The notes beneath the pieces are model-generated. The model was not told where the DNA came from. It saw only the letters and a list, made by a program, of their open reading frames with translations, and searched no databases. Of a DNA stretch of 64,000 nucleotides, positions 1-61,035 are shown piece after piece (position 1 is the stretch's first letter; every line of letters starts with the position of its first letter). Made by a program: the position numbers and the translations under genes. This stretch comes from Methanobacteriota archaeon (GTDB lineage: Archaea > JAADCQ01 > Methanopyri > Methanopyrales > Methanopyraceae), in contig JAMOPO010000015.1 of NCBI GenBank assembly GCA_027064425.1, forward strand, positions 248,001-312,000. The letters are read 5' to 3'.

Positions 1-327
1 GCGCTCCCGGGCCCGCCCGGGAGTCGCCGTGGGCGGGTGCCGGCAGGATCAGGGCAATGACCGGGACGATCGCAACCGGGAGCGCTCGCCCACGGTCCGG
101 CACTCCGTCCGCTGCGCCCAGCCTGCCCGGCCCGACCGCGCGGCCTTCGCTCTGGGGCGCCGAGAGCTTGGCCCGTAGAGGACCCCCTTATCCGGTCGCC
201 CGGGGTCGAAGCGCTCCCTACCCGGTGCTCGGACCTTCCATCGGGTCAGCACCCAGGTCCCGCGGCGGAGGCTCCTCGGATGGGTAAACCGTCCAGCCGT
301 CGACACGGCGCGCCGGGGAGCCCGGAA

Positions 328-1575
328 ATGAGCGTTGAGGTATCGGTGGCCAGGGAGCTGCTGCGGCTGCTTCGCGGTGCGGAGAGAGAGCTGACGGTCG
401 TGAGTCCGTGGGTCACCGTCACTCCGAAGGAGCTGTGGGAGTGGCTCCGGGACTATGCCGGCGACCTCCGGCGGTCGGTGGATAGCGAGGACTGGGAGGA
501 GCTCTTCCGCGCCGAGCGGTCCTACCTGATCTTCGACTACGACGCGACCCGGGAGCACCTGCCTGAGCGGGAGCTTGAGCGGGTCGTGGTTGAGTGGGCG
601 CGACTGGGGTTCCACGTCCTCGACGTCAGTAGGAGAAAGGACCGTCGCGAGGGGGGAGAGGAGCGCCTCGGGACGCACCTAAAGGTGTACCTCGGCGACG
701 ACGAAGTCCTCGTCGGGAGCATGAACTTGACGCAACGAGCCCTGGACCGGGCTAGGGATGGTGACGAGATCCTCGTCGGGGTAAGGAAGAGAGACGTCGG
801 ACGCATCCGAGAATACGTGGTAAAGAGGATTAGGGACCGCGGCAGGACGGTGGCCGTGGGTAACCCAAGGCTGCCGGACGGTCGCTTCAAGGTCTTCCTC
901 GTGGACAGGGACGAGCGGAACGATGGGGTCGTGCTGAGGGCGGTTAAGCCGAAGGAGCGGAAAAAGTGCTACCGGATACCGATCAGGGAGGGGAGCAAGG
1001 AGGCTGCGGGCTTTGTGCTCGACGGTCGGCTCTACAGGGTCGAAGGGAGGCGGGACTGGGACGTGGTTGATATCGTCGACTGCACCACCGAGGTCAGAGG
1101 GGCGGACGAGCGGGAGGTGGAGGAGGTTCTCAGCCCCTTCGCGTGCATGAGATTGCACGAGTTGGACCCGGAGCAGCTGCGCCTCGTGGAGACCGAGCGA
1201 CGCGAGCTGAGCGCTGCCGGAAGCGTTAGGAGGTACCTGGACGGGTTCGAGAAGGAGTTCGGCGAGATCCGCCGGGTCAAGCGACTGTGGGGGGTCACGC
1301 CGTTCGTCGCGTGGGAGCTTCCCTGGAAAAGAGGACTCCCGTACAGCCCGCCCCGGCGGTGGCGGCGGCTCGTCTACGTGAAGGCTCGACAGGGGAAGGG
1401 TGGGAGGCTGAAGCTGGAGTACGTGGGATGGGCCGGAAGCGGGGAGCGCATCCGTGACCTGCTCCGAGAGGTTCGAGACGCGGCCCTCTCCAAGCCCGGC
1501 GTCACCGTCGACCTGGGGATCGTGGAGACGGACGAGGAGTTGGTGCCGCTGCTGGCCGTGGTTAAGCGGTCGTGA
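328..1575 (+). CDS. Phospholipase D-like (single HKD motif) protein
   Basis: About 415 aa. The N-terminal domain carries one PLD/HKD signature, H117-x-K119-x4-D124 followed by G130-S131-x-N133, as in PLD-superfamily nucleases and phosphodiesterases; families with one HKD copy normally act as dimers. The C-terminal 250 residues are basic and unrecognised. I chose the ATG at 328 because it has a GGGGAG upstream and gives a compact N-terminus; the frame is open back to 280. No signal peptide or membrane segment is visible, so it should be cytoplasmic. The next genes on the same strand are a methylase-like protein and a PIN protein, which suggests nucleic-acid processing or defence, but that is inference. 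A lipid-acting role is not excluded. Confidence 0.75.
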   Translation: MSVEVSVARELLRLLRGAERELTVVSPWVTVTPKELWEWLRDYAGDLRRSVDSEDWEELFRAERSYLIFDYDATREHLPERELERVVVEWARLGFHVLDVSRRKDRREGGEERLGTHLKVYLGDDEVLVGSMNLTQRALDRARDGDEILVGVRKRDVGRIREYVVKRIRDRGRTVAVGNPRLPDGRFKVFLVDRDERNDGVVLRAVKPKERKKCYRIPIREGSKEAAGFVLDGRLYRVEGRRDWDVVDIVDCTTEVRGADEREVEEVLSPFACMRLHELDPEQLRLVETERRELSAAGSVRRYLDGFEKEFGEIRRVKRLWGVTPFVAWELPWKRGLPYSPPRRWRRLVYVKARQGKGGRLKLEYVGWAGSGERIRDLLREVRDAALSKPGVTVDLGIVETDEELVPLLAVVKRS

Positions 1576-1894
1576 CGGGCCGACGCCGCGGAACGGCTCC
1601 AGGCGCTAACCCGGCCCGTCTGTACGTGTCGGCAAGGATTTCTTCCGGTTTTCTACGCCGTTGACTGGCCTCCTCGGGGCTCGGGAACTGCCTCATCCGG
1701 CTCGGGCGCCCCTCGCCGTCGCGGGGTTGATATGACGATTCTGAAACGGTCTCCGGTTTTTAGAAGCGGGTTGCTTTGATGAGGAAACGGGCTCGGGTGG
1801 CCGGCCCCGGAGCTGGTCCGGTCGCGCTCGGGCTCCGGGCATGGAAAGACTTACTGGCGGGTGCGGAATCGCCGGTGCCCGGAGGTGACGCGCG
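1576..1894. other. Intergenic stretch without a recognisable gene
   Basis: About 320 nt between the PLD-like and methylase-like genes. It contains a relatively AT-rich patch at 1720-1790, possibly a promoter, and a strong GGAGGTGA ribosome-binding site at 1881-1888 serving the TTG start at 1895. I see no convincing coding frame, tRNA or complete C/D box RNA here. Confidence 0.5.
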
Positions 1895-4099
1895 TTGACG
1901 GGTCACAAAATCGACTCGTGGTTCCCGATCACTCTCGTCTCGGATGAGTGCGAGCGCGAGCGAGGGCTCGGGTCACCGGTTGGGGTGCTCCCAGGGTTCA
2001 GGTCGCCGCTCGCGCTGGCCCGGGCGGTGGTCCTGCTGAGCCTCTCCACGGAGGACGCGGAGCGGGAGGCTCTGCTTCCGGCGCTGCAGCCGGTCATTGG
2101 GGAACCCTGGAGGACCTCGATCGGGGCGCTGGGCGAGGAACCTGAAGAGGTGCGGGTCTTCGGTGATGGGTCGGTCGCGCTCGAGGCGGCGCGGGCGGGG
2201 CGGCGGGTCCGGCTCGTTGCACCCGATCCCGCGATCGCCCGGTTCTTTGAGGAGGTGTTTGGGCGACTGTTGGAGGAGGGCGAGGAGGCGCTGGAGGAGT
2301 TGGCCGGCTTCCTCCGGCAGGTGGGAAGGGTCCTGAGGAGGCGGCTCAGTGACCTCTACGGCGGTGGGGAGCGGGCTTACCTGTGGATCAAGCGGGTGAG
2401 GTGCCCGCAGTGCGGGCTCCTGATACCGCTCATGGAGCACCGGTGGATCGTGAAGGGAAGCTGTGCGTTAAGGGTGGAGGTGCCGGAGGGCGGTGACGAG
2501 GTGGAGTTCGAGGTCGTCGAGCCGGAGGAGGCCGGTCCGGGAACCCTCCGGGCCGGCCGCGTGACCTGCCCGAGGTGTAGGGAATCGTGGGGGCTGGAGA
2601 GGGTCCGGCGGAGTTTCCTGCTCCGGGCCGCCAGGGGAGGCCCCGCCGGAGCGTACCTGGCGGCCGTCGTGGAGGACGGCTCGGTCCGGTCGGCCACGGA
2701 TCCGGACCTTGATCGCGTCGAGCGGGCCCGCGAGCTGGCCCGTGAGCTGGGCAGAAGCCGGCTCCTGCCGTGCGAGGACCCACCGGGGTGGCTCCGGAGG
2801 TGGGGCGTTTGGGACGTCTCCTGGATGTTCAACAGCAGGCAGCTGGCCGCGCTCCTGGAGGCCGTCACCGTGACCCTCAACGTCGGTGAGAGTCTGGAGT
2901 GGTGCAGGGTCTGGGCCGCCGCCGTCCTGACCGAGCTCTCCCTGCGGAACTCCGTGCTGTCCCGCTGGGACCCGGCGGTCGGGGAACCAGGGAGGGCTGA
3001 AGGCTGGGCGTGGGAGTACGGGGAGCTGCCCGTTCCCCGGGCGTGGGAGAAGGTTTCCAGTGAGATCCTAAGGGCCTGTCGGGAGCTGATCGAGGTCGCG
3101 GAGGGTGTCGAGGTGGAGGTCGAGGTGGCCGACGGTGGGTGGGGGGTGGCTCGGGACCTCCCGGACGCGCTGTTCCGGGCCTGGTCGGGGGCCCTGCTGA
3201 ACGCGCCGGTGTGGGGGACGGAGGGACGAGGCGGGAGCTCGATCCTCGGCGGGCTCAGCTGGGGTGGCCGATCCTTCCTCGTGCTCCGGAGTGACCGGGT
3301 GGCGGAGCGATGGATGGAGGTCGTGGGGGAGATCGTGGGCCGGGGGCTCAGGGCCGCGTCGGCGTGGCCGGTGTTCGGCGAGAACGTGCTGGTGGTCCCG
3401 CTGGTCGAGCGCGAGTCGCCCGAGGAGGTTGACTGGGAAGACGTCGTCTCCGAGGTGAGGGACGCCGTGCGAAGGCTTCTGGACGCGGCGCGCGACCTGG
3501 AGGGGCGCGGGTGGGAGTCGGTGGGGGTGGTGCCGTACGCCGCCGCCCTTCCCCCGTGCACGGGGCTGGACGTCGTCAAGCGGGGCGGGGACAGCCTGAG
3601 CATCCGGCAACCCGAGGTCCTCTCAGAGGTGCTCGCGGAGGGCTGGCGAGAGCTGGTGACGGCGGTCCTGGAGCTCCTCAACGTGGGCGTGTCGGACCCG
3701 AGGGCGCGGTTCTACGCGGTGTACCGGCTGCTTTGGGGGTACCGCGAGTCCTGCGATCCGCCGAGCCGGAGGAGGCTCGAGCCGCTGCTGAGGGCGCTGA
3801 AGCTGGACCCGGACGAGCTGCCGTACCTGAGCGCGGACGGCAGGCTGGAGTCCTACCGCGAAAGGCGCGAGCTGCGGCCCCGAGAAGACCCCGTCAACGC
3901 GTTCCACGCGGCGCTGTTGGCGGTCAGGGAGGGCGCCCCGGAGTCCGCGCTGGAGGGGGTGCCGGAGAACGTTAGGAAGGAGGTCCTCGAGCTGGCCCGA
4001 GCCGTGATCCGGGCGGCCCGCCGCTGCGGCGAAAATCACCCCGAGGTGGAGCTGGCGCGGAGGCTCCTCGGGGTGTCGGTCGGTGTCGCGGGGCGATGA
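1895..4099 (+). CDS. Degenerate COG1743/DUF1156-like adenine methylase with zinc ribbons
   Basis: 734 aa. The TTG start is supported by GGAGGTGA six bases upstream. The layout follows the COG1743 (DUF1156) adenine-specific DNA methylase family: an N-terminal region with ALARAVVL (residues 40-47), a motif-I-like stretch around residues 86-102 ending in LEAARAG, Cys pairs C170/C173 and C225/C228 forming zinc ribbons, and a later block with NSRQLAAL. The family's usual DPF-GGG motif I has become RVFGDG, and I cannot find the catalytic DPPY/NPPY tetrad, so methyl transfer may be lost. Stop overlaps the following PIN gene. In other genomes COG1743 proteins sit with DUF499 ATPases and PLD proteins in predicted DNA-modification systems; no ATPase is visible here. 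Assignment by eye. Confidence 0.55.
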   Translation: MTGHKIDSWFPITLVSDECERERGLGSPVGVLPGFRSPLALARAVVLLSLSTEDAEREALLPALQPVIGEPWRTSIGALGEEPEEVRVFGDGSVALEAARAGRRVRLVAPDPAIARFFEEVFGRLLEEGEEALEELAGFLRQVGRVLRRRLSDLYGGGERAYLWIKRVRCPQCGLLIPLMEHRWIVKGSCALRVEVPEGGDEVEFEVVEPEEAGPGTLRAGRVTCPRCRESWGLERVRRSFLLRAARGGPAGAYLAAVVEDGSVRSATDPDLDRVERARELARELGRSRLLPCEDPPGWLRRWGVWDVSWMFNSRQLAALLEAVTVTLNVGESLEWCRVWAAAVLTELSLRNSVLSRWDPAVGEPGRAEGWAWEYGELPVPRAWEKVSSEILRACRELIEVAEGVEVEVEVADGGWGVARDLPDALFRAWSGALLNAPVWGTEGRGGSSILGGLSWGGRSFLVLRSDRVAERWMEVVGEIVGRGLRAASAWPVFGENVLVVPLVERESPEEVDWEDVVSEVRDAVRRLLDAARDLEGRGWESVGVVPYAAALPPCTGLDVVKRGGDSLSIRQPEVLSEVLAEGWRELVTAVLELLNVGVSDPRARFYAVYRLLWGYRESCDPPSRRRLEPLLRALKLDPDELPYLSADGRLESYRERRELRPREDPVNAFHAALLAVREGAPESALEGVPENVRKEVLELARAVIRAARRCGENHPEVELARRLLGVSVGVAGR

Positions 4100-4814
4100 G
4101 TCGGACGTGCCGGCGAGGCTTCGGGAGAGGCTCTGCAGCTTCCGTGGCGTCGTCCTGGACGCCGACGTGTTCGCGGCCCTCGTCGGGGCCTTCTCGGACG
4201 ATCTCTGCGAGGCGCCGACCGACAACGTCGTGTACGCGTTCCTCCTCGAGCTCAGGCGGCTGATGGGTGAGAGGTTCGTCCTGTACTCCTACGAGGAGCT
4301 CCAGGCGAAGTACGCCGAGATCGTGAGGGAGCTCGCGGACGAGCGGGTCGTGTGCGACGACTGCCCCGCCTCGCCCGTAAGCCCAACCGTACGGGGTCTC
4401 TGCCACCTGTTCAGGAGTCACAAGGAGGTAAGGGTGCCCAGGCTACTGTCCCGGTCAGGCCTCCTCGAGCAGCTGGAGCGGCTGTACCGGGAGCTGCTGC
4501 GCGCGGGGTGCACCTGCCCACCCGAGTTCAGGGACTTCAAGCACGACTTCGTGGAGGGGCGCGCCGGCGACGAGCACGTGCACGTGGCCAACGTCCTCGT
4601 GGCCGCGGTCAAGAGGGCCGTCCTCGTGACCTCCGACCGCAGGATCAAGGACGTCTGCGATAGGTTGAAACCCGGCTGCCTCTGCATCCGCCTCGACCGC
4701 GAGTGCGTCAGGGACCCCACCCAAGAGGAGCTCAGGCTCGAGCTGGCCCCCGAACTCGGTGGCCTCCCCTCCGAGCTGAGGTACCGGCGGGTGGCCGGCG
4801 GGTTCGCCCCTTAG
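4083..4814 (+). CDS. PIN-domain-like nuclease
   Basis: 243 aa from a GTG overlapping the previous stop by 17 nt, so the two are probably co-transcribed. PIN-fold features: an acidic strand VVLDADVF near residues 22-29, and a C-terminal half with GDEHVHVANVL followed by LVTSDRRI, the expected second and third acidic positions of a PIN/FLAP-like RNase. The protein is rich in paired cysteines (CDDC, CTC, CLC) that might bind metal or form disulfides. PIN proteins are usually Mg/Mn-dependent RNases, often toxins; no antitoxin-like gene adjoins it. A second possible start is GTG 4107. Confidence 0.6.
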   Translation: MSRGDESDVPARLRERLCSFRGVVLDADVFAALVGAFSDDLCEAPTDNVVYAFLLELRRLMGERFVLYSYEELQAKYAEIVRELADERVVCDDCPASPVSPTVRGLCHLFRSHKEVRVPRLLSRSGLLEQLERLYRELLRAGCTCPPEFRDFKHDFVEGRAGDEHVHVANVLVAAVKRAVLVTSDRRIKDVCDRLKPGCLCIRLDRECVRDPTQEELRLELAPELGGLPSELRYRRVAGGFAP

Positions 4815-5004
4815 CTCCGGGCGGGTCGCTCCTCCTCCGCGGTGCCCGGGCGCTCCTACCGTTGTAATCTCACTCCCTGAGCGGGCCCCAGCCTCCGGGG
4901 CCGAGGCTCGCGCGGTGACGGCAACGAGCAACCTGCGGTAGCCTCTCTCCGCCCGGTCACGAAGGCAGGCTGAGGTGGGGCGCGCCGGACGGGTCCGGCG
5001 GGGG

Positions 5005-6669
5005 TCAGCCGAGCCCCATCAACCTGCTCTCCACCAGCGCGCCGAGCGTCGCGAGGGCTGGTCCGAGCACTCCCGCCCAGTACCCGGGAAACTTGTTACC
5101 GAAATCGCACGTGACGTTGGTTAGCGAGTGCAGGAGCGCACCGGTCGGTAGCGGGGCGACCGCGTACAGGACGTGATTCGACGCCCGGTCGACCACCGCC
5201 CTCCACTCCAGCGGCCAAAGCTCCCCCTCGATCGCGGCCTCCAGCAGCCCGTACCAGGAGCCCGCGAGCGGGAGCGGCAGTCCGGAGAGATCGCTCATGA
5301 GCCGCTTCGCCGGCTCCTCGATCAGCGGAGCCCAGACCGAGCCCTCGACCGCGTCGAGCACGCGCGACGAGGCCCGATCGCCGAGTCCCAAGAGCCCCAG
5401 CAAATGCCCCCCCGAGGCAGTGAAGGATCCCGACGTACGCCGGACGCGCCGCGTACTCGAGGACGCTGGCCAGGTCCCACCGGGACTCGGGCGCTTCACC
5501 CAGCCGCGGGAGGCGCTCCAAGAGCTCGATGCAGGCCAGCGAGGTCGCGAGCCCAACCCCGCTCGCGAGGAGGTAAGCCCCCGGAAGCAGGCCGGGGTTC
5601 AGCAGCGTCAGCAGCGGTCGGGCGAGCTCCGTGCCGGCCAAACCGGCGGCCTCTATGAGGTTCCGGATTCCATGGGCCGGGCGGAGAGCCGGAGGAGGTT
5701 CCGGCTGAGGAGTCGCTCGACGCCGTCGATGGATTTCAACAGCTCCGCGAGGCCGGCCAGCCGCGGGTTGCGCTCCCGTATAAACCCGAGAGACGGTCTC
5801 GCGAGCTCGAGGAGGATCCTGCTCCGGTGACGTCGGGTCAACCAGAGCCCCGACCCGCCTCCGGCGGACCCCACCTGGGACGGCCGAACGAAGTCCTCTG
5901 AGGTCAGCTCGAGGAGCTTTTTGACCCCCTGGACGGCAGGCGGGCGCGCCACGCACCACCCGTACGCAGGTCGTAGACGACCCGGTACGCGTCCGACCCG
6001 CCGGGCCTCGCGAAGTCAAATGCGACGGTCTCGCCCTCAAGCTCCACGCGAACGAGGAGGTCGTAGGGGTCCATGAGCTCGATGGCCTGGGTGAGCGGGA
6101 TGATGCCCACCATGGTCGTTTCGAGGGCAGAGGGCGGCGGGAGGTGCGTGGCGGGTTCGAAGACCCCTCCGCCGTGAATGATGAACACCGGGAGCTCCTC
6201 GCCAGCGTGTACCGGCTCGACGGGTACGGAGCGGAGGCCCGGTGTCCAGAACCCTACGACCAAAGTACGTGCGGGTGGGATCGAGCCGCACCGAGCGGCG
6301 AACGGTGCCCGCGGGCGTCGGGTCCTCGACCGCCACCTCGGTCGGCGTCACCCGAACCCTCGGCTCGTCGGAGCCCAGCCAGAAGACGGGCCGGCTCTCG
6401 TCGGGGGCGATGAGGATGTGGGTCCAGCCGACGACCGTTGGAAGGTCTTCGGCGCCGTTGAGCCTTTCCGCAAGCTGACTCGTGACCTCCAGGGTGGCAC
6501 GCCTCGGCCCCTCCTTCTCCAGCGCAACGGCGCGATCCACGAGGTCCGGTAGGAGGACGGCGTCACCCGAGGCCGGGATCGCCGTCAGCGACAACGTCAG
6601 CACCGCGGTGCCAGGGTCCGGGCACCCACCGGCTCGCTCCCCAGTGTCCCAGAGCTCGAGCCGGGTCAT
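5005..6669 (-). pseudogene. Frameshifted paralog of the 10390-12981 secreted/membrane gene
   Basis: Consecutive pieces of one protein are spread over three reading frames: about 6669-6260, 6260-5945, 5950-5675, 5675-5410 and 5410-5005. Read together they follow the second half of the protein encoded at 10390-12981: a beta-rich extracellular part (for example a strand block ending GETVAFDFARPGG against ILELTVRIDFSAG) and a C-terminal membrane part with an EExxKR sequence (IEEPAKRL) matching LLEEFLGR of the intact copy. The last frameshift lies at a seven-C run (5407-5413). At least four shifts make expression of a full protein implausible. Decay is more likely than sequencing error given their number. 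Confidence 0.7.
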
Positions 6670-7009
6670 CCCCCGACCGCATCAAGGAAGGGCTGGAAGC
6701 CCCGCCACGGCCCTGGTGCGAGCGGGTTGTTAGTGCTTCGGACGAGCGCCCCGGCTCCGGGTCGCGGCGAACCGTCATTCTTAAGAGAGGAGCCCGCAGG
6801 GCGAGTGCGGCCCTTCCGAGGAGTTGCAAGGGACGATCTTGGAGTGTGGAGGCCGCCCCGAACGGGGTTCAAAGAGTCCGATGGAGTCGCCGGCGTGACC
6901 GTGTCGGGCGACGCGGTGGTGGTCAGAACGGTGGACGGCGGGAGCTAAGACCGCTCATACTCGCCTCGAAGGGTTCGCCGAGACGATCCGGGAGCTGAGG
7001 GGTCCAGGG
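6670..7009. other. Region with no supportable gene
   Basis: 340 nt upstream of the decayed gene at 5005-6669. Short frames exist on both strands, but none has a convincing start with ribosome-binding site or a recognisable product. It may contain the vanished 5' end and promoter of the pseudogene. Confidence 0.4.
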
Positions 7010-7273
7010 TTGAGCGGTAAGCGCCACCGGTCTTTCGGGAAGGCCATCGACTTCAGTCGGATTCGCCCGCACCGGATCGCGCCGATAGCGGGTGTGACGG
7101 TAGCGGCCACTGCGGGAGCGGTGATCGGCACGATTACCGGTATTTTGGAGCGGCGATGTCCGTACCAGTCCCCGGTTGAATGCCAGCCCCGGTGTGCCCG
7201 AGGTGGCATCCACGTGCGAGTCGAGCCGGGCCGGCCGGTGATCGTGCGTGACTATGGGTACCTCGAGCAATGA
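7010..7273 (+). CDS. Small single-pass membrane protein, unrecognised
   Basis: 87 aa from TTG. Residues around 26-46 form one plausible transmembrane helix rich in Ala, Val and Gly (VAATAGAVIGTITGIL), preceded by a basic stretch and followed by a short tail with two cysteines. No family was recognised. It lies between two pseudogenes and the frame is open further upstream without a usual start codon, so it may itself be a remnant. Existence is uncertain. Confidence 0.35.
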   Translation: MSGKRHRSFGKAIDFSRIRPHRIAPIAGVTVAATAGAVIGTITGILERRCPYQSPVECQPRCARGGIHVRVEPGRPVIVRDYGYLEQ

Positions 7274-7725
7274 AAAGAGATCCCGGGCACCCTGATATTG
7301 GGAGCAGAACGTGGTCACGATGAGAGCCCCCACGCGGGTGGTGCACTGGAAGGGTCAGAGTGGTGTGAGTGTACCCGCGAAATCGAGGAGGCGCGCCGCT
7401 GCTGGTGAGGTGGCGCGGAGGAGTTGGCCCGAGAGCCCGGCTCGACGCCCTATTCTGCGGTGGCCCACCGGATCGGCCGTCGGCTCGGTGGAGCGGTCGT
7501 CGGGGAGCGGGGCGGGCCGCGAGCGAGGCGTTCGGAAATGGGAAAACGATGCGTTACCCTTTATTAACATGCCGTATCTTTAGCACAGGAAAAGGTTTCT
7601 CTGGCTGGCGCACACCCGGTGCCGAAACCGCCGGGGCGCCGGAGCCGAGTGGGGCTGGTAGCGAAGGGAACGTCCGCTTCCGATGCGTGAGGCGACGCCG
7701 ACCGCCGTACCGCAACGCCTACAGG
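7274..7725. other. Region with no supportable gene; AT-rich patch near 7535-7610
   Basis: 450 nt without a convincing gene. An unusually AT-rich patch near 7535-7610 contains CCTTTATTAACATG and could be a promoter or an old operator. No downstream gene on the plus strand follows, since the next features are the minus-strand pseudogene 7726-8935. Confidence 0.4.
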
Positions 7726-8935
7726 TCAGGACGGGATGGCGTCCGCGGGCAGCCACAAGCGCCGGGTCAACCTGGACGCGCGCAGGGTGATCAGGGCTCT
7801 CATGATGAAGCAGACCGCCAGCGAGAGAACGCCGACCGCCTCACCGTACGGGACGCCCCAGACGAGGGCCACGAACGGCGCCGCTATCAGTCCTGCCAGC
7901 CCGATTGCCACCGGGAGCATCAGGAAGTGCAGCCCTATCGTCTGCTCGGCGATGGGGTACTTGAGGGGCCTCCGGCGGTGCGCCCGCACGATCAGGAGCG
8001 GAGATATCAGGAGGATTACGGCCCCGACGATCAGGAGCGGGCCGGCGAGGAGATGGCCGAACAGGATCGGTAGCGGCGCGCCCGCGCATCGATCCCGGCG
8101 GGTACGGCGAACAGCTGCAGCTGGACGAGGACCAGCCCGCGCGGCAGGGAGGCCGACCTGTAACGGTAAGCGCGGTGCGCGATCCGCCAGAACGCGAGCG
8201 CCACGGCCGTCAGGGGGAGGAAGGCGACGAGGATGATGAGCGCGGCAGGGTCCAGCCGGTGACCTTCAGGCCGAGCTTCACGAGCGTTCTGGTCACCTTG
8301 AGCAGCAGCTTCTTCAGGATCTTGGTCAGGAGCGCCTTGCCCGCCTTCTCACCGGCCTTGGCACCAACGGTACCCTTCTTCCCCTTCCCGCCGCCTAACA
8401 GCGTCAGGGGGTGACAGCACGACCCACAGTCCCACGTGCTTCGGCTCAATGGCCTCCAGGTTTTGCCCGTACCCGGTCAGCACCCTCAGCCAGTGCTTCA
8501 GGAGCTTCCGAACCACCCGCCGAGCTCGCGCGGGTGGACCGACCCGCACCTCCAGCCACGGCCAGCGCAGCCAGACGCCGTCTCGACGCCGCTCGACGAG
8601 GGGGAACCTCCGGCTCTTCCTCAGAATCTTCCCGAGGTGCGGAGCAGCCGATCCTCGTCCCCATCCCGGGCGGCCAGGATCGCCTTGACACCATGGTACA
8701 CCTTCCAGCTGCGGACCGGGAGTACAACGTGCCGCGGGTCCCGGAGGACCAGGACCAGTCGCACCTCCTCGGCCTCGTCCATCCGAGGGTGGAGCGAGCG
8801 GTGCCGTTCCTTCACTTCGACGACGTCCTCCGGGCGCACCCGAACCGTCCCGTCCGCCCCGCTCACGACGATGCGCTCCGAGGATAACTTCACTCGAGAG
8901 GAAAAGCCGGGGAGGACGCTGACCGCGCGAACCAC
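7726..8935 (-). pseudogene. Frameshifted paralog of the 9059-10261 membrane protein
   Basis: The intact neighbour at 9059-10261 can be followed piece by piece here in shifting frames. About 8935-8640 encodes the N-terminal domain (VRVRPEDVVEVKERHR against VRLEDVVDLKVRPK; AILAARDGDEDRLLR against ALLAARDGETDRLVR). About 8640-8420 continues with a second conserved block (WLRWPWLEV against LLRWPWLEL). About 8420-8250 and 8250-8080 give a Lys/Leu-rich linker and the first membrane helices, and about 8070-7726 gives the last helices ending RRLWLPADAIPS against RKVWIPGG. Three or more frameshifts are needed. It begins with a GTG and is divergent from the intact gene. Confidence 0.75.
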
Positions 8936-9058
8936 GCGTCCTTTCCCCGACCGACGCGGTCCCCGTCTCGGGTTACATCAAAACGGAAATAAAGCCGGCA
9001 CCGCTCGAGGCGCCCGGGCGCGGGGCCGCGGCCGGCCGGACCGGCCTGATACGCTCCG

Positions 9059-10261
9059 ATGAGCCGAGGGTCGAAGCGGCGCACCGTCGGCGGCGGGGGA
9101 GCCCGGTTGGTCGAGCCCATCCGCCCCGTCCCCGGCTCCTCCACCTGGGTGAAGCTCACCTCAGGGTGCGTGATCGTCCGCGAGCGCGGTACGACCCGCC
9201 GCGTGCGCCTCGAGGACGTCGTCGACCTGAAGGTCCGCCCGAAGCGGGGGCCGAGGACCTCCGATCCGATCCGGGAGGGGCGGCTCGTCCTGGTTACAAA
9301 GGATCTCGAGCGGGTCGTGCTGCCGGTCCGCGACAAGCGGCTGTACTGGGGCCTCAAGGCGCTCCTCGCCGCCAGGGACGGCGAGACCGATCGGCTGGTT
9401 AGGTACCTGACGGAGCTGCTGCGGATCGCGGGACGCCCGCCGCTCGCCGAGCGTCGAGGCGGGCGCGTGCTCCTCCGATGGCCGTGGCTCGAGCTGGAGC
9501 TGCCCGTCGAGCGGGCCGAGACCGTCTACCGCAGGCTGCTCTCCGAGTGGAGGGAGCTGCTGGAGTCCGACGAGTACGATCATGACCTGAGCCGGGAGGG
9601 CCGCCCGAGGTGGGTGGCCCTCTCCGTGCCGCTGGCACCTGCGGTGATGCTGGTGGGCGTTCACCGCAAGCTGGTCGCCCAGGCCAGTTCCGTCCTGGTG
9701 ATGGGGGCGAAGGTCGCGGTGAAGGGCCTTGGACGCGCGCTGGGACCGGGGATTTACCCGGCGCTCCGCGACGTGGGCGTCGGCCTGGTCTCCGCGCTGC
9801 CGTGGCTCGCGCTGTTCGCCTGCCTGTACTGGCTCTTGGCGCGCCGCCTACTCTCCACCGTGGATGACGAGCTGCTGAGGTTCATGCTGACGCAGAGGCT
9901 CGCGGGGATGGGAGCGGCCACGGGCCTCTGGTGCCTCCTGGCCCCGTTCGCCGCGAGGACGTACGCGCTCCCGGTCGCCGTGATCGCCGCCTGGGTGTCC
10001 GTGATTCCCGCCGTTCGGGCCGCGTCGGCGTGCCTTAAGGACCCGGAAAGGTTCGCGATCGCCATAACGGAGGTGGGAACGTGCGCGCGGCTGGCGTTCG
10101 CCGCGGGCGCGTGTGCCGCGCTGGCCGCCGCCGTGGTCGAGGGCCCGCTAGCGGGCGGCGTCGCGGAGCTGATCTCGGCGGTCGCGTACGCGCACGTCGT
10201 CTCGAACAGGGTGGAGGCCGCGTCCTGTTTGGCACGGAAAGTGTGGATCCCTGGCGGTTAA
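9059..10261 (+). CDS. Membrane protein with N-terminal PH-like domain, lineage-specific
   Basis: 400 aa. Residues about 28-115 look like a small beta-rich PH-like domain (alternating hydrophobic strands around VRLEDVVDLKV and VVLPVRD, then the helix ALLAARDGE). A second soluble segment with LLRWPWLEL follows. The C-terminal half has about five hydrophobic helices from residue 195 on. Start ATG 9059. An AT-rich stretch (8973-8996) between this gene and the divergent decayed copy may hold promoters for both. It converges on the 10390-12981 gene; the same two families occur side by side in decayed form upstream, so the pair probably works together. Function unknown. Confidence 0.65.
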   Translation: MSRGSKRRTVGGGGARLVEPIRPVPGSSTWVKLTSGCVIVRERGTTRRVRLEDVVDLKVRPKRGPRTSDPIREGRLVLVTKDLERVVLPVRDKRLYWGLKALLAARDGETDRLVRYLTELLRIAGRPPLAERRGGRVLLRWPWLELELPVERAETVYRRLLSEWRELLESDEYDHDLSREGRPRWVALSVPLAPAVMLVGVHRKLVAQASSVLVMGAKVAVKGLGRALGPGIYPALRDVGVGLVSALPWLALFACLYWLLARRLLSTVDDELLRFMLTQRLAGMGAATGLWCLLAPFAARTYALPVAVIAAWVSVIPAVRAASACLKDPERFAIAITEVGTCARLAFAAGACAALAAAVVEGPLAGGVAELISAVAYAHVVSNRVEAASCLARKVWIPGG

Positions 10262-10389
10262 CGGGCCGGTGGGACGGCGCGAGCGGGAAGTTAGGTCCGG
10301 ATCGGGGACGGTACCGCCTGCCGCCTTCCCTACGGAGTTCCAGCGCCGGCCGCCTTGAGTGACCATGAAATGCGGCCGGTAAGACCCTC

Positions 10390-12981
10390 CTACGGCGCCC
10401 CCAGCAGCGCCCAGGAGAGGAGGACGGCGACGAGCGCGTGCGTCATCCCGTGTACTGGAAGGCGTCCTGAGTTCATCACGCCGTAGAGCAGGGCGGCCAG
10501 CGGCCAGGGCGGCAGGGTCCAGAGGAGCAGTGCGTAGCCGAACTTCTCGGTCGCGGGCAGGACGATCGTGGTCGGAAACGCGAGCCAGTAGCCCGGATCG
10601 AGCCACCGATCCCGGCCGTGCCAGAGCGTGTCGAGGAGCACGTAGACGAACGCGGCAACCTCCGGCGAGCCCGTGAGCTCGGCGACCCGGTGCATCGCGA
10701 TCGTGTCCACCACGGGAGCCACGGCGCAGTAGAGAGCGCGCTCCGAGAGCTCCTCCGCCCAATCCTCCACGCCGGTCGCGGGGGCCGGGAGGCCCACCAC
10801 CGGCAGGGCTAGCTCCAGCAGCGGCCGGACGAGGAGTGGCAGGAGGATCCTTCCGAGGAATTCCTCAAGCAGCCCGACGGGCGCGTAGTAAGCAACGGCC
10901 GTCAGGAGCGGGCCGACCAGGCCCAGGGAGCGTGACCTCTCGGCGAGGGGCCTGAGCGTTTCGTGCAGCCAGAGCTCGAGCGTCACCAGTGCGAGGTCGA
11001 TGGGCAGCGCGCACACCGCCGCCAGCGTGTCGGGCGCGACCGCGAGCCACGGTGCCCTCAGGACGGCGCACGCCGGCTCCGAGAGCGGGTCACCCGGGCA
11101 CGGTACGAACCCGACACCTGGGAACCTCTGCCTCCACTCGAGCCACCAGGAAATCAGCCGCGGTATCGGCGCGCCCACGGGGTTAGCGGCCATGCTAACG
11201 CCCTCGTCAACGAACCGCCTGAACGGGTGATCTTCGGGAAGCTCGAAGACGACGAGGACCGGGTGCGAACCCTCCAGCGAGTGTACAACCACTCCCCCGA
11301 CCCTCCCTCCCAGCCGCTCCACCTCCTCGGCCCGCCTCTTGATCTCCTTGACCACCTGAGGGTCGCTCACCACTCGAGCCCGGAACTCGGGCCGCCCCGC
11401 GCTGAAGTCGATCCGCACGGTGAGCTCCAGGATGCCGTCCTCGCCCGGGATGGCGCAGTAGTAGCGGAGGACGCACCCCCGTTCCGAGAGCTCAAACGCC
11501 GCGTCGATCGGGGAAGCAATCGGCGGGACGAGAGTGGCGACCCGGTCCGGGGCTACGTACGCCCGAGCCGAGTCGCCCTCGAGGACGTACACGATCGGAC
11601 CGAGGTCCGTGACCGGCGCGACCAGGTACGTGCGCTCCGCGTGGTATACGAAATAACAGCTGAGGTAGTCTCCGACGAGGATCACGGCCGGGTCCGGAAG
11701 CCGGAGACTCCGGACTAAGCTCCACAGGGACAGCGACAGCTGAGGGGACGGGCCGACCGTGAACGAGTCGTCCTCGGGCCGGTACGTGCAGGTGTACGAC
11801 CTCCCCGTAGGTTCCACATACACCGTCACGTGCGCACCTTCGGCGAGCTTCTGGAGTGCCTGCTCGCGCCACTTGCACAGCAGCTGGTAATCATCGTACA
11901 GGCCGCCAGTCACCGTCGCCGCCGAGGCGGGAGTCGCCGCGACGAGCGGCAGCGCGAGTAAGACTAACGCCGCGAGTCGCCGAAGCCCCCGGATCCCTCG
12001 TCGCCCTACGGGCGGGAAGGGCAGGAGTTGCAGTGCTGGCCCGCCTTGCTCGCCTCGCCGCCACCGTGACTCCGGGAATCGGATGTTGGGGTGCTCGCGC
12101 AACACCTTCCGCAGCTCCGCCTCGCCTCCGGGCCAGACCTGTACCGCCCGGTTAATCACCTCCATAACCGGATCCTGCCAAGGTGGCCGAAAGCGAGCGT
12201 ATAGGGGCCGCACCTCCGCGGGCATTCTCAGAACGCCTACCCGGACGAGCAGGCTACGCACCAGCGCGAACCGGGCCAGGCGGTGCAGGAGGCGTGGGTC
12301 CCGGCTCACGGTCCTGGAAACGAGGATGCGCCCTTCGCGCGGCAGGAACGTGATCGTGTACACGATGACACGGTCCGGCGGAGGCGTCGGTGCGAGAGTC
12401 TTCGGCACCGGCCGGCCCAGGACCCGGAAGACGACTCGGTCGGGGTACACGACGTACTCCACCGCCTCTCGCAGCATGTCCTGCATCTCCACCGATTTCC
12501 TGGCGATCTCGCGGTCACCCTTCAGGATGACCGCCTCGTAGGGAGGCATCTGGCCCGACTGCGAGATCCGGAGCTCGCAGACGATGCCGTCGAGCAGCGC
12601 CGCGATCAGGTCCGGCCAGGCGTCCACGACCGCGGGCCCGCGCACGTTCAGCGACGCTGACACCTGGAACCCGTTCGCGGTTGCCACTACCCTCACGCAT
12701 CCGGGCCCAACCTCCACCTCGGGGCGCCCGAAGGCCAGGAACACGTCCCTGTCCGGGAGGTAGGTGACGTCGCACGTTGACGCGTCCTCCGAGTCCACAT
12801 AAATTAAAGGGCCGTCCGGCGAGTACGCAGCCACCCACCGTTGGAACACCTCGGATCGCACGTACTTCCAACCGAACCACCAGTCGTCGATCGAGCTCCC
12901 CTGGAGCAGGGGTCGACCCGCGACTGGACTCACTGCCAGCAGGACGCCCAGCACCGCGAGGAGCTCCACGCGCCGGATCAC
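10390..12981 (-). CDS. Large secreted/membrane protein, duplicated beta domain plus CPBP-like C-terminus
   Basis: 863 aa from GTG, starting with a signal peptide (hydrophobic core LLAVLGVLLAVSPVAG). Two related beta-rich domains follow: in the first TCDVTYLPDRDVF, in the second YTCTYRPEDDSF, each followed later by a similar block before an R/K-rich helix. Between them, near residues 325-355, is a second signal-peptide-like segment (LAALVLLALPLVAATPASA), so this looks like two secreted paralogs fused in frame. The last 230 residues hold about six membrane helices with LLEEFLGR (an EExxxR motif) and late histidines (HGMTH), resembling CPBP/Abi intramembrane proteases; that link is tentative. 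A decayed single-domain copy lies at 5005-6669. Confidence 0.6.
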   Translation of the reverse strand: MIRRVELLAVLGVLLAVSPVAGRPLLQGSSIDDWWFGWKYVRSEVFQRWVAAYSPDGPLIYVDSEDASTCDVTYLPDRDVFLAFGRPEVEVGPGCVRVVATANGFQVSASLNVRGPAVVDAWPDLIAALLDGIVCELRISQSGQMPPYEAVILKGDREIARKSVEMQDMLREAVEYVVYPDRVVFRVLGRPVPKTLAPTPPPDRVIVYTITFLPREGRILVSRTVSRDPRLLHRLARFALVRSLLVRVGVLRMPAEVRPLYARFRPPWQDPVMEVINRAVQVWPGGEAELRKVLREHPNIRFPESRWRRGEQGGPALQLLPFPPVGRRGIRGLRRLAALVLLALPLVAATPASAATVTGGLYDDYQLLCKWREQALQKLAEGAHVTVYVEPTGRSYTCTYRPEDDSFTVGPSPQLSLSLWSLVRSLRLPDPAVILVGDYLSCYFVYHAERTYLVAPVTDLGPIVYVLEGDSARAYVAPDRVATLVPPIASPIDAAFELSERGCVLRYYCAIPGEDGILELTVRIDFSAGRPEFRARVVSDPQVVKEIKRRAEEVERLGGRVGGVVVHSLEGSHPVLVVFELPEDHPFRRFVDEGVSMAANPVGAPIPRLISWWLEWRQRFPGVGFVPCPGDPLSEPACAVLRAPWLAVAPDTLAAVCALPIDLALVTLELWLHETLRPLAERSRSLGLVGPLLTAVAYYAPVGLLEEFLGRILLPLLVRPLLELALPVVGLPAPATGVEDWAEELSERALYCAVAPVVDTIAMHRVAELTGSPEVAAFVYVLLDTLWHGRDRWLDPGYWLAFPTTIVLPATEKFGYALLLWTLPPWPLAALLYGVMNSGRLPVHGMTHALVAVLLSWALLGAP

Positions 12982-59486: not shown

Positions 59487-59864
59487 TTGGTCTTCGTGAC
59501 CGTGGCCAAGCGGAAGGTGGCCGAGCGCGTCCGCGAGCAGAAGGAGCCCTACGACTTCAAGACGGACGTCTTCGAGGGCAAGTTCCAGCCCCTCATCGCC
59601 GCCGAGGACGTGACGGTCGAGGAGGGCGAGGACCTGATTATCAAGGTGGAGCCCGTCGAGATCCCGCCGCACACGATGGTCCTCCTGTCGCCGTACGCTC
59701 GGAACCCCTACGGCCACGTGATCGCGGTGGGTGAGGAGCACCCGAAGATGATGGAACTGGGCCGGAAGGTGGACCGGGTCTACTTCGCCGCCGTCCGGCA
59801 CGGTAGGATCCGGAAGGGTGACGTCTTGGGCGTGCTCATCCTGGTCGACCTGAGAGGTGAGTGA
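59487..59864 (+). CDS. DUF22 protein
   Basis: 125 aa from TTG with GGGGAGGAG upstream. Family pattern includes PIEPPHTMVL-like VEIPPHTMVLLSPYARNP, GHVIAVGEE and the C-terminal GDVLGVLILV. Methanogen/archaeal family of unknown function, 12 nt downstream of atpD and 3 nt upstream of DUF61. Confidence 0.88.
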   Translation: MVFVTVAKRKVAERVREQKEPYDFKTDVFEGKFQPLIAAEDVTVEEGEDLIIKVEPVEIPPHTMVLLSPYARNPYGHVIAVGEEHPKMMELGRKVDRVYFAAVRHGRIRKGDVLGVLILVDLRGE

Positions 59865-59867
59865 GGG

Positions 59868-60326
59868 TTGCGCGACACCCCCTCCTCCAACAACGACTCC
59901 CTCGATCGCAAGCTGCTCCAGGAGATCCTCCGGATTAACCGTCACCTCCCGCGCCGCCGAAAGACCCTGGCCGAGCTCCTCGAGGAGGAGCGGCCCCACG
60001 TCGTCAACCGGGACGGGACGAAGCACTACTTCAAGCGGGAGGAGCTCGACCGGCTCGCCGAGATCCTGCCCAAGTACCTCCACGGCCGGCTGAAACTGCC
60101 CATCCTCATCGAGCTGGGCTACTCGGGCACGGCCATCGTCCGCGGGAAGGCCGAGGTTCGCGTCGTCTGCGAGATCCTGGGGGAAGAGTGGAAGTTCGGC
60201 CAGGAGAGGGTGGAGCTGAACTACCTGGACGTCCGGAAGGTGCGGCGGGAGCTGCCCACGACGACCCAGTACATGTTCAGCACGGAGCACCTGAAGCGGG
60301 TGAACCGCGTTGAGAGAGGAAGATAA
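59868..60326 (+). CDS. DUF61 protein
   Basis: 152 aa from TTG. DUF61 pattern: EILRINRHLPRRRKTLAELL, LPIPILIE-like KLPILIELGY, and a C-terminal ELPTTTQYMF. Uncharacterised archaeal family. Its 3' end overlaps the small membrane-protein gene by 17 nt. Confidence 0.9.
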   Translation: MRDTPSSNNDSLDRKLLQEILRINRHLPRRRKTLAELLEEERPHVVNRDGTKHYFKREELDRLAEILPKYLHGRLKLPILIELGYSGTAIVRGKAEVRVVCEILGEEWKFGQERVELNYLDVRKVRRELPTTTQYMFSTEHLKRVNRVERGR

Positions 60327-60450
60327 GCGGCGGCTGCTGGCGCTCGTGGTCCGGATCGCACCGCTGGCCGCCACGATCACGCTCGTCCTGGGCTTCATCG
60401 TCCTGGTTTTGCTCCTTCTGACCGGGCACGCGAAGTTGCCCGGACGCTGA
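60310..60450 (+). CDS. 46-aa single-pass membrane protein
   Basis: TTG start with GGGTGA seven bases upstream, inside the DUF61 3' end. A basic N-terminus (LREEDKRRLLALVVR) is followed by one long hydrophobic helix (LAATITLVLGFIVLVLLLL) and a short basic tail. No family recognised. The tight overlap and ribosome-binding site suggest it is really translated with the DUF22-DUF61 run. Confidence 0.6.
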   Translation: MREEDKRRLLALVVRIAPLAATITLVLGFIVLVLLLLTGHAKLPGR

Positions 60451-60521
60451 TTCGGTTAGATCTGATCACCCCCAATACCGACGGGATGCACCCAAAACCT
60501 AAAGAACCCTGATCTACCGAA
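60451..60521 (+). promoter_or_regulatory. Histone promoter region flanked by an inverted repeat
   Basis: TTCGGTTAGATC (60451-60462) and GATCTACCGAA (60511-60521) are inverted repeats (one-base indel). They flank the TATA-like AAAACCTAAA at 60494-60503, which is about 65 nt upstream of the histone ATG. Possible operator or structured leader. Confidence 0.45.
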
Positions 60522-60567
60522 CGTACCGGACCCTGGCCCACGAACACCCGATCGGGGGGAAATCCCG

Positions 60568-61035
60568 ATGGCGGTTGAGCTGCCCAAGGCCGCCATCGAG
60601 CGGATCTTCCGGCAGGGTATTGGCGAGCGGAGGCTGAGCCAGGAGGCCAAGGACGTGATCTACGAGTTCGTCCCGAACATGGCCCGGTACGCCGCTGAGG
60701 CCGCCAAGGCCATCCTGGACGCCTCAGGGAAGAAGACGCTCATGGAGGAGCACCTGGAGGCGCTGACCAAGGTCCTGATGGTGGACGGCGTCGAGGACTA
60801 CGACGGCGAGCTCTTCGGTCGGGCCACCGTGCGGCGCATCCTCAAGCGAGCCGGCGTCGAGCGAGCCAGCGCTGACGCCGTGGACCTGTACAACAAGCTG
60901 ATCTGCCGGATCACCGAGGAGCTGGGTGAGATGGCGGCCGAGTACGCCGACGAGGACGACCGGAAGACGGTGCAGCGCGAGGACGTCGAGAAGGCCATCA
61001 CCTGCACCATGCCACGCGCCGACGAGTTCCTCTAA
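60568..61035 (+). CDS. Fused double-fold archaeal histone (HMk type)
   Basis: 155 aa, twice the usual length, with two histone folds in one chain: the first from VELPKAAIERIFRQG to EHLEALTKVLMVDG, the second from FGRATVRRILKRAG to TVQREDVEKAITC. This fused pseudodimer is a hallmark of M. kandleri. GGGGGGA seven bases before ATG. Packages DNA. Stop overlaps the convergent hef stop. Confidence 0.97.
   Translation: MAVELPKAAIERIFRQGIGERRLSQEAKDVIYEFVPNMARYAAEAAKAILDASGKKTLMEEHLEALTKVLMVDGVEDYDGELFGRATVRRILKRAGVERASADAVDLYNKLICRITEELGEMAAEYADEDDRKTVQREDVEKAITCTMPRADEFL

Follow-up and report, generated by a model that had tools for sequence, protein, structure and literature searches.

What does it mean that two intact genes stand beside two broken genes of apparently the same kinds? 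The question is raised by a window of 64,000 nucleotides, positions 248,001-312,000 of contig JAMOPO010000015.1 (here C15), from a Methanopyrus genome assembled as 1.54 Mb in 57 contigs. Gene A (9059-10261, plus strand, 400 aa) and gene B (10390-12981, minus strand, 863 aa) are intact in the list of open reading frames (ORFs), as a sequence-only reading of this DNA had claimed; next to them lie A' (7726-8965, minus strand), a pseudogene of the A family, and the D pseudogene (5005-6669, minus strand). The sequence-only reading took the four genes for a two-gene cassette that had been duplicated, with subsequent loss of one of the units. We consider it probable, instead, that the locus is a patch of multicopy, Methanopyrus-only families whose members were inserted, shuffled and lost independently of one another, that is, by birth-and-death. 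We also consider, much more tentatively, whether the D family might contribute a diverged protease to the processing of surface proteins in these organisms.

The comparisons described here cover five Methanopyrus genomes: that of the window (G000), G001, M. kandleri (G002), G003 and G004. The closest finished relative, of the same genus, is a single contig of 1,694,969 bp, which we take to be M. kandleri AV19. Gene calls in M. kandleri and on C15 come from a simple codon-usage script and not from curated annotation. The phylum search for relatives beyond the genus drew on the same five genomes only, so that the description ‘Methanopyrus only’ is weakly tested outside the genus; for the A family, the search outside Methanopyrus covered 16 genomes of other families. 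A search of a genome-contig collection for related loci, with A and D as queries, confirmed no relative.

The decayed genes and their closest relatives

The frameshifted paralog of A that had been claimed at 7726-8935 is borne out as a frameshifted homolog running from 8965 to 7726 on the minus strand. It was recovered by tblastn with A (7e-24, in two frames) and by profile search, in three segments and with a TGA in frame, and a frameshift-aware alignment places it at 37.0% identity to A across nearly the full length. The same kind of alignment gives 62.5% identity between A' and the M. kandleri copy at 1,272,292-1,273,644. Because A' is nearer to this M. kandleri copy (1,272-1,274 kb) than to A, the split between A and A' preceded that of the two species. 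The A family has three copies in M. kandleri, the third at 1,160 kb, and two in the genome of the window, and was found in these two of the five Methanopyrus genomes only. The M. kandleri ortholog of A, at ~1,344 kb, is itself broken into two frames (72 and 60% identical to A), and while A and A' are adjacent here, their M. kandleri counterparts are ~71 kb apart.

The D pseudogene preserves the outline of a protein with a signal peptide, a beta domain and a membrane domain, interrupted by five frame breaks and, compared with an intact copy on contig C8, by a deletion of ~32 nt. Its five frame segments span model positions 7-545 of 546, and the best-kept of its segments (5008-5361, minus strand) retains the membrane motifs APLIEEPAKR, YGLLE and LLHSLTN. 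The C8 copy is a single open frame of 656 codons, to which the window D is 84.7% identical at the protein level, and contig C8 in its entirety (1-3700) repeats window positions 3925-7596 at 92% identity. Elsewhere in the same genome, D is intact on C15 (113.7-115.4 kb) and on C53, and partial on C50. The family is present in all five Methanopyrus genomes, often in several copies, of which several are broken: the M. kandleri D at 1,351 kb carries a TAG, and a D gene of G003 is split. Broken A or D copies with frame changes or stops in M. kandleri and G003 were noted at L034 8946-10228 and 16117-17718, at L036 7292-8827 and at L040 6081-7929.

Could the frameshifts simply be errors of assembly or sequencing, D and A' being intact in the organism? 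The fragmentation of the assembly into 57 contigs and the existence of an intact, 92%-identical D copy on C8 would be in keeping with this, but the pattern of substitution makes it very unlikely. Between the window and C8, at an equal synonymous divergence (dS) of 0.117, the ratio of non-synonymous to synonymous divergence (dN/dS) is 0.63 for D and 0.08 for its PIN-like neighbour; among intact D genes it is 0.39-0.40. The window D differs from the C8 copy by ~82 non-synonymous changes and by indels of 5, 9, 12 and 32 bases, and A', too, is interrupted by a stop as well as by several frame breaks. The dN/dS contrast with the neighbour led us to reject sequencing error as the source of the D breaks. 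D is a real pseudogene, in which the frame is disrupted and selection relaxed relative to the intact copies, and we infer that its decay started soon after the window and C8 copies separated. C8 itself could have arisen by segmental duplication or could come from a variant strain. When a second co-assembled strain was considered as its source, no further ~92% copies were found of the 10.8 kb downstream, nor of A and B, but the neighbour gene is under strong purifying selection in the window and C8 copies alike.

The duplication of a cassette, in which an A-B pair was copied side by side and one unit then decayed, has an evident attraction. Four genes of A type and B/D type, two of them decayed and two intact, do lie inside 8 kb, and A and A' are indeed homologous, as D is, remotely, to the C-terminal half of B. 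However, alignment shows neither decayed gene to be closest to its intact neighbour: A' is closer to the copy at 1,272 kb in M. kandleri than to A, and D goes with the C8 copy; its relatives at other loci are far nearer to it, and direct comparison with B shows no similarity. The orientations differ as well, A (plus) and B (minus) being convergent and A' and D in tandem on the minus strand. In M. kandleri, ~13 kb containing other genes separates A (~1,344 kb) from B (1,357.8-1,360.4 kb). Nor do the families always occur together, as A and B or its relatives of the BN family (see below) are present in two of the five genomes and D in all five, so that three genomes have D without A or B/BN. With divergence, layout, M. 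kandleri positions and family distribution all speaking against it, we regard cassette duplication as extremely improbable. Independent gain, shuffling and loss, on the other hand, explain the layout, the closest relatives, the M. kandleri positions and the D-only genomes together, and it is for this reason that we favour birth-and-death. Under birth-and-death, A' and D would be two copies of long and separate standing whose decay took place here, while A would be an intact member of the lineage sister to A', and B an intact member of a D-related family. The suggestion that these genes form an uncharacterised envelope system remains fair as far as uncharacterised envelope proteins are concerned; that they constitute a single system is not supported.

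Some observations concern the company kept by other D copies. At C15:115.4 kb an intact D and a BN frame on the same strand overlap by 14 bases (9725-11380, with the second frame starting from 11367), so that D and BN neighbours can be in one transcript, at least in this one instance. Another multicopy Methanopyrus family, X/Y, accompanies D on C15 at 112 kb, on C50 and on C53 (L028 8071-9114; L032 2449-3774 and 4442-5506; L033), and C50 and C53 are 93% identical along 4.6 kb.

The intact genes A and B

Judged by its sequence, B unites two secreted genes in one fusion. Residues 1-330 match a stand-alone secreted beta-protein family, BN (profile E 2.7e-61), which has four stand-alone genes in M. 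kandleri and one in the genome of the window. The remainder, BC, is made up of a signal peptide, a beta domain and a membrane domain, and is found as a stand-alone gene on contig C34 (L031 3960-5615) with a signal peptide of its own. The junction bears the marks of both parents. The C-terminal tail of the stand-alone BN proteins is conserved, for example as GGGxxSGxPVWVLPLLPVPLAGRR, their end reading PVWVLPLLPVPLAGRR; inside B, the BN part is followed by the tail-like segment ALQLLPFPPVGRR (11998-12036, minus strand), then by the signal-peptide-like RRLAALVLLALPLVAATPASA, and then by BC, the signal-peptide-like internal segment that opens the BC half being GIRGLRRLAALVLLALPLVAATPASA (11920-11997, minus strand). 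Together, the internal tail and signal peptide take up residues ~316-354 of B. The beta domain of BC is homologous to BN (E 5e-11). M. kandleri has kept the fusion, with 67% identity, and of the five Methanopyrus genomes only this one and that of the window yielded B/BN proteins.

How, then, is D related to B? The stretch 5005-6669 had been taken for a frameshifted copy of the gene at 10390-12981, but it belongs to a separate family, D, with intact relatives elsewhere. Searches with the B protein returned no D below E 0.001 in the genome and none below 0.01 in the loci, and in a window-wide tblastn of B the best match at 5005-6669 reached only E 9.5. Profiles give a fainter but recurrent signal: the matches of the D profile outside its own family include M. 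kandleri B (E 0.0046), the BC profile, run on ~2,000 predicted proteins, has its best matches outside B/BN in a single broken D-like gene of M. kandleri, one to each half (E 0.0025 and 0.029), and hhalign of D against BC gives E 2.5e-4 at a probability of only 43%. These alignments are colinear, and both hmmsearch and hhalign place APLxEExxKR of D opposite APVVDTxAMHR of B; at this position of the window's BC half, APVVDTIAMHR (10687-10719, minus strand), the putative catalytic Glu pair is lost. We read D and the C-terminal half of B as remotely homologous, at the edge of detection.

Gene A has a different architecture, in which a PH-like beta domain (residues ~29-107) is followed by another small beta/alpha piece and then by several hydrophobic helices. 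In an AlphaFold2 (AF2) model built from the single sequence, residues ~31-165 mostly have predicted local distance difference test (pLDDT) values of 80-95. The N-terminus has six predicted strands followed by a helix at 93-107, where the PH fold is defined by a seven-strand sheet and a capping C-terminal helix. Its top PDB matches in Foldseek are mostly PH-fold proteins with probabilities of 0.94-0.99, but with E-values of at least 0.11, which are not significant. The likeness to PH-fold proteins such as Rtt106 and SSRP1 is one of structure; A differs from them in running on into membrane helices, and it matches no sequence family. A is probably a membrane protein in which a PH-like domain would face the cytosol. 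Of the earlier guesses about domains, the PH-like fold of the A N-terminus thus retains the backing of a confident stretch of the model and of the fold matches, while the combination of secreted beta domains with a CPBP-like membrane segment suits D better than B.

A possible protease half and the tails of secreted proteins

The membrane domain of D shows an unusual pattern of conservation. When eleven diverged D domains are aligned, conservation reaches at least 90% at columns that include P, EE, KR, G, G, E, P and H, arranged in the order EExxKR, GxxE, H, and the most distant member, that of G004, reads PPLYEEWVKR, GAIE and LHAWCN. The active-site motifs of PrsW are EExxK and HxxxD, and those of CAAX proteases EExxxR and HxxxN (PMC4602095). 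D has the EExxK motif, a downstream Glu after an aromatic-Gly helix and a further downstream His near the last helix, in the order of PrsW; the last Arg of its conserved EExxKR falls at the EExxxR position, and several copies have HxxxN, as in the membrane helices of the CPBP/type II CAAX family (PF02517). A member of the latter family, myxosortase, cleaves C-terminal tails consisting of a hydrophobic stretch and arginines (PMC11980579), and might serve as a model for the action of D on BN-like tails.

From these likenesses one may construct the following scenario. D would be exported with its beta domain facing outside, and its C-terminal helical domain would be a PrsW/CPBP-like intramembrane protease using the EExxKR, GxxE and H set. 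It would cut membrane-anchored surface proteins, possibly of BN type, for which short hydrophobic-arginine tails would be the natural substrates. B, on the other hand, is probably a non-catalytic relative that would link the BN surface domain to a membrane anchor, because BC is without the Glu pair and the His. An EEFLGR in an upstream helix of B does fit EExxxR, and is lost in the C34 homolog.

There are a number of results that weigh against the protease scenario. Pfam and NCBIfam scans of A, B, BN and D gave nothing over cut-off, and PF02517 has no match over cut-off in any of the five Methanopyrus genomes. PF13367 finds a genuine PrsW-family gene in each of these genomes (that of the window's genome at C15:34504-35082), and reaches D only in G001, at E 0.25 or worse; in a profile-profile comparison of D with the Methanopyrus PrsW, just 19 columns align, around the EE motif. 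Compared with PrsW proteins such as that of B. subtilis, D adds a signal peptide and an external beta domain and coexists with a separate true PrsW in every genome; compared with the CPBP/CAAX proteases, it lies outside what PF02517 recognises over cut-off. The His/Asn site varies: two copies have replaced the N by S or A, and the His is lost in G003. The AF2 model of the BC half from its single sequence (pLDDT 43) is unusable. Finally, since D is broken in several genomes, it is not an essential sorting enzyme. The same absence of a protease profile match over cut-off and the same variable His/Asn site would be expected if B, BN and D were conventional proteins of the cell surface or associated with the S-layer, with C-terminal helices acting only as anchors, the conservation of EExxKR, GxxE and H being structural, and BC and the M. 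kandleri protein Mk_412545, which retain the domain without these residues, point in this direction as well. What speaks against the helices being anchors only is that conservation in the D membrane domain is highest at precisely these residues, in the order found in PrsW and CPBP proteins, even in the most diverged copy, that of G004. We would put the anchor explanation a little short of even odds, and the proposal that D is an intramembrane protease, taken as a single step, at close to an even chance.

If there is a protease, are there candidate substrates? Recurrent tails are found on many otherwise unrelated signal-peptide proteins, consisting either of (V/I)PVxP, a hydrophobic stretch and RRR, or of the short proline-rich (I/V)PVxPxxPPRRR. 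In M. kandleri, hydrophobic-arginine tails are carried by 18 of 177 signal-peptide proteins versus 7 of 1257 others; tailed proteins include those at 59863-60720, 321611-322570, 598998-600584, 1156220-1157155 and 1349240-1350607 in M. kandleri and at 84021-85616, 215037-216782, 238277-240142 and 333205-334563 on C15. We regard these tails as candidate C-terminal sorting signals. The obvious candidate for the enzyme acting on them would be an archaeosortase-like protein matching PF09721, which is present in all five Methanopyrus genomes, over cut-off in four of them (G000:C57:74083-74445, G002:C1:397389-398015 and one in each of the others), and in which the motifs KGC, NVLR and AHD were read in G000, G001 and G002. 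A TGA in two of the matches had suggested selenocysteine in the archaeosortase; we rejected this, as the TGA terminates the gene upstream. The resemblance to the archaeosortase/exosortase and CTERM systems lies in the PF09721 matches occurring together with many secreted proteins that end in a hydrophobic segment and RRR. The differences are that every sampled tail scored below cut-off against all known CTERM models, and that D is not an archaeosortase.

Combining these elements, we propose that Methanopyrus might possess a genus-specific surface-processing system in which a fast-turnover, so far unrecognised family of exported proteins has a highly diverged PrsW/CPBP-type protease half, dead relatives of this half are fused to tail-bearing surface proteins, and an archaeosortase operates alongside, with a proline-rich tail outside the known CTERM models. 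As a whole, we assign this proposal a probability of roughly one in four.

Neighbouring genes and wider meaning

Lastly, we need to consider the surroundings of the four genes. Window positions 280-4814 hold, consecutively, PLD-like, DUF1156-like and PIN-like genes with weak matches to anti-phage models. The PLD-like gene (280-1575) weakly matches DrmC/DpdK. The DUF1156-like protein (1895-4099, plus strand), of a type associated with anti-phage functions, matches NCBIfam NF042963 in part (E 2.4e-7, well short of the cut-off and spanning 164 of 960 model positions), and the PIN-like protein (4083-4814, plus strand) is assigned to PIN by eye only, having no Pfam match above cut-off. The DUF1156-PIN pair is syntenic in M. 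kandleri, where it also adjoins a BN gene. One might suppose from these matches and this association that the A, B and D families belong to an island of defence or conflict genes. We think this unlikely, as every match is far under the curated cut-offs, A, B and D match no PADLOC model, and D at C15:113.7 kb and at 1,351 kb in M. kandleri sits among other genes.

Upstream of the first gene of the window, a fusion protein of HEPN and nucleotidyltransferase domains is encoded at C15:245060-246187 (L029 5060-6187). Between D and A', an 87-aa frame with one hydrophobic stretch (7010-7273, plus strand) is possibly a small gene, with counterparts at 88% on C8, 42% on C47 and 31% at 1,318 kb in M. 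kandleri.

DUF1678 (PF07913) is, to our knowledge, a multicopy family specific to M. kandleri; relatives are present in the genome of the window as well. It forms a dispersed gene unit of ~700 bp, mostly with ~87% protein identity among the M. kandleri copies and with unrelated flanks, often beside BN, D or PIN-like genes. There are 14 copies in M. kandleri (for example 1286763-1286188, 287907-287335 and 1322684-1323256); others are located on C15 (117789-117274 and 244504-244055), C47 and C48 of the window's genome and in G003 (L040 8008-8604). This unit may be mobile. Four of 16 family loci are within 4 kb of a DUF1678 copy, compared with 1.2 expected, which is suggestive only of DUF1678 as a mobile driver of the family shuffling.

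Methanopyrus, a hyperthermophilic methanogen that branches deeply, has many proteins for which no relatives are known. If D is indeed a protease, this would offer the first functional handle on a multicopy orphan surface-protein family of Methanopyrus, and its dead relatives fused to tail-bearing proteins would form a parallel to the pseudo-proteases found elsewhere. Even under plain birth-and-death, the locus illustrates that intact and broken homologs standing side by side need not mean recent tandem duplication.

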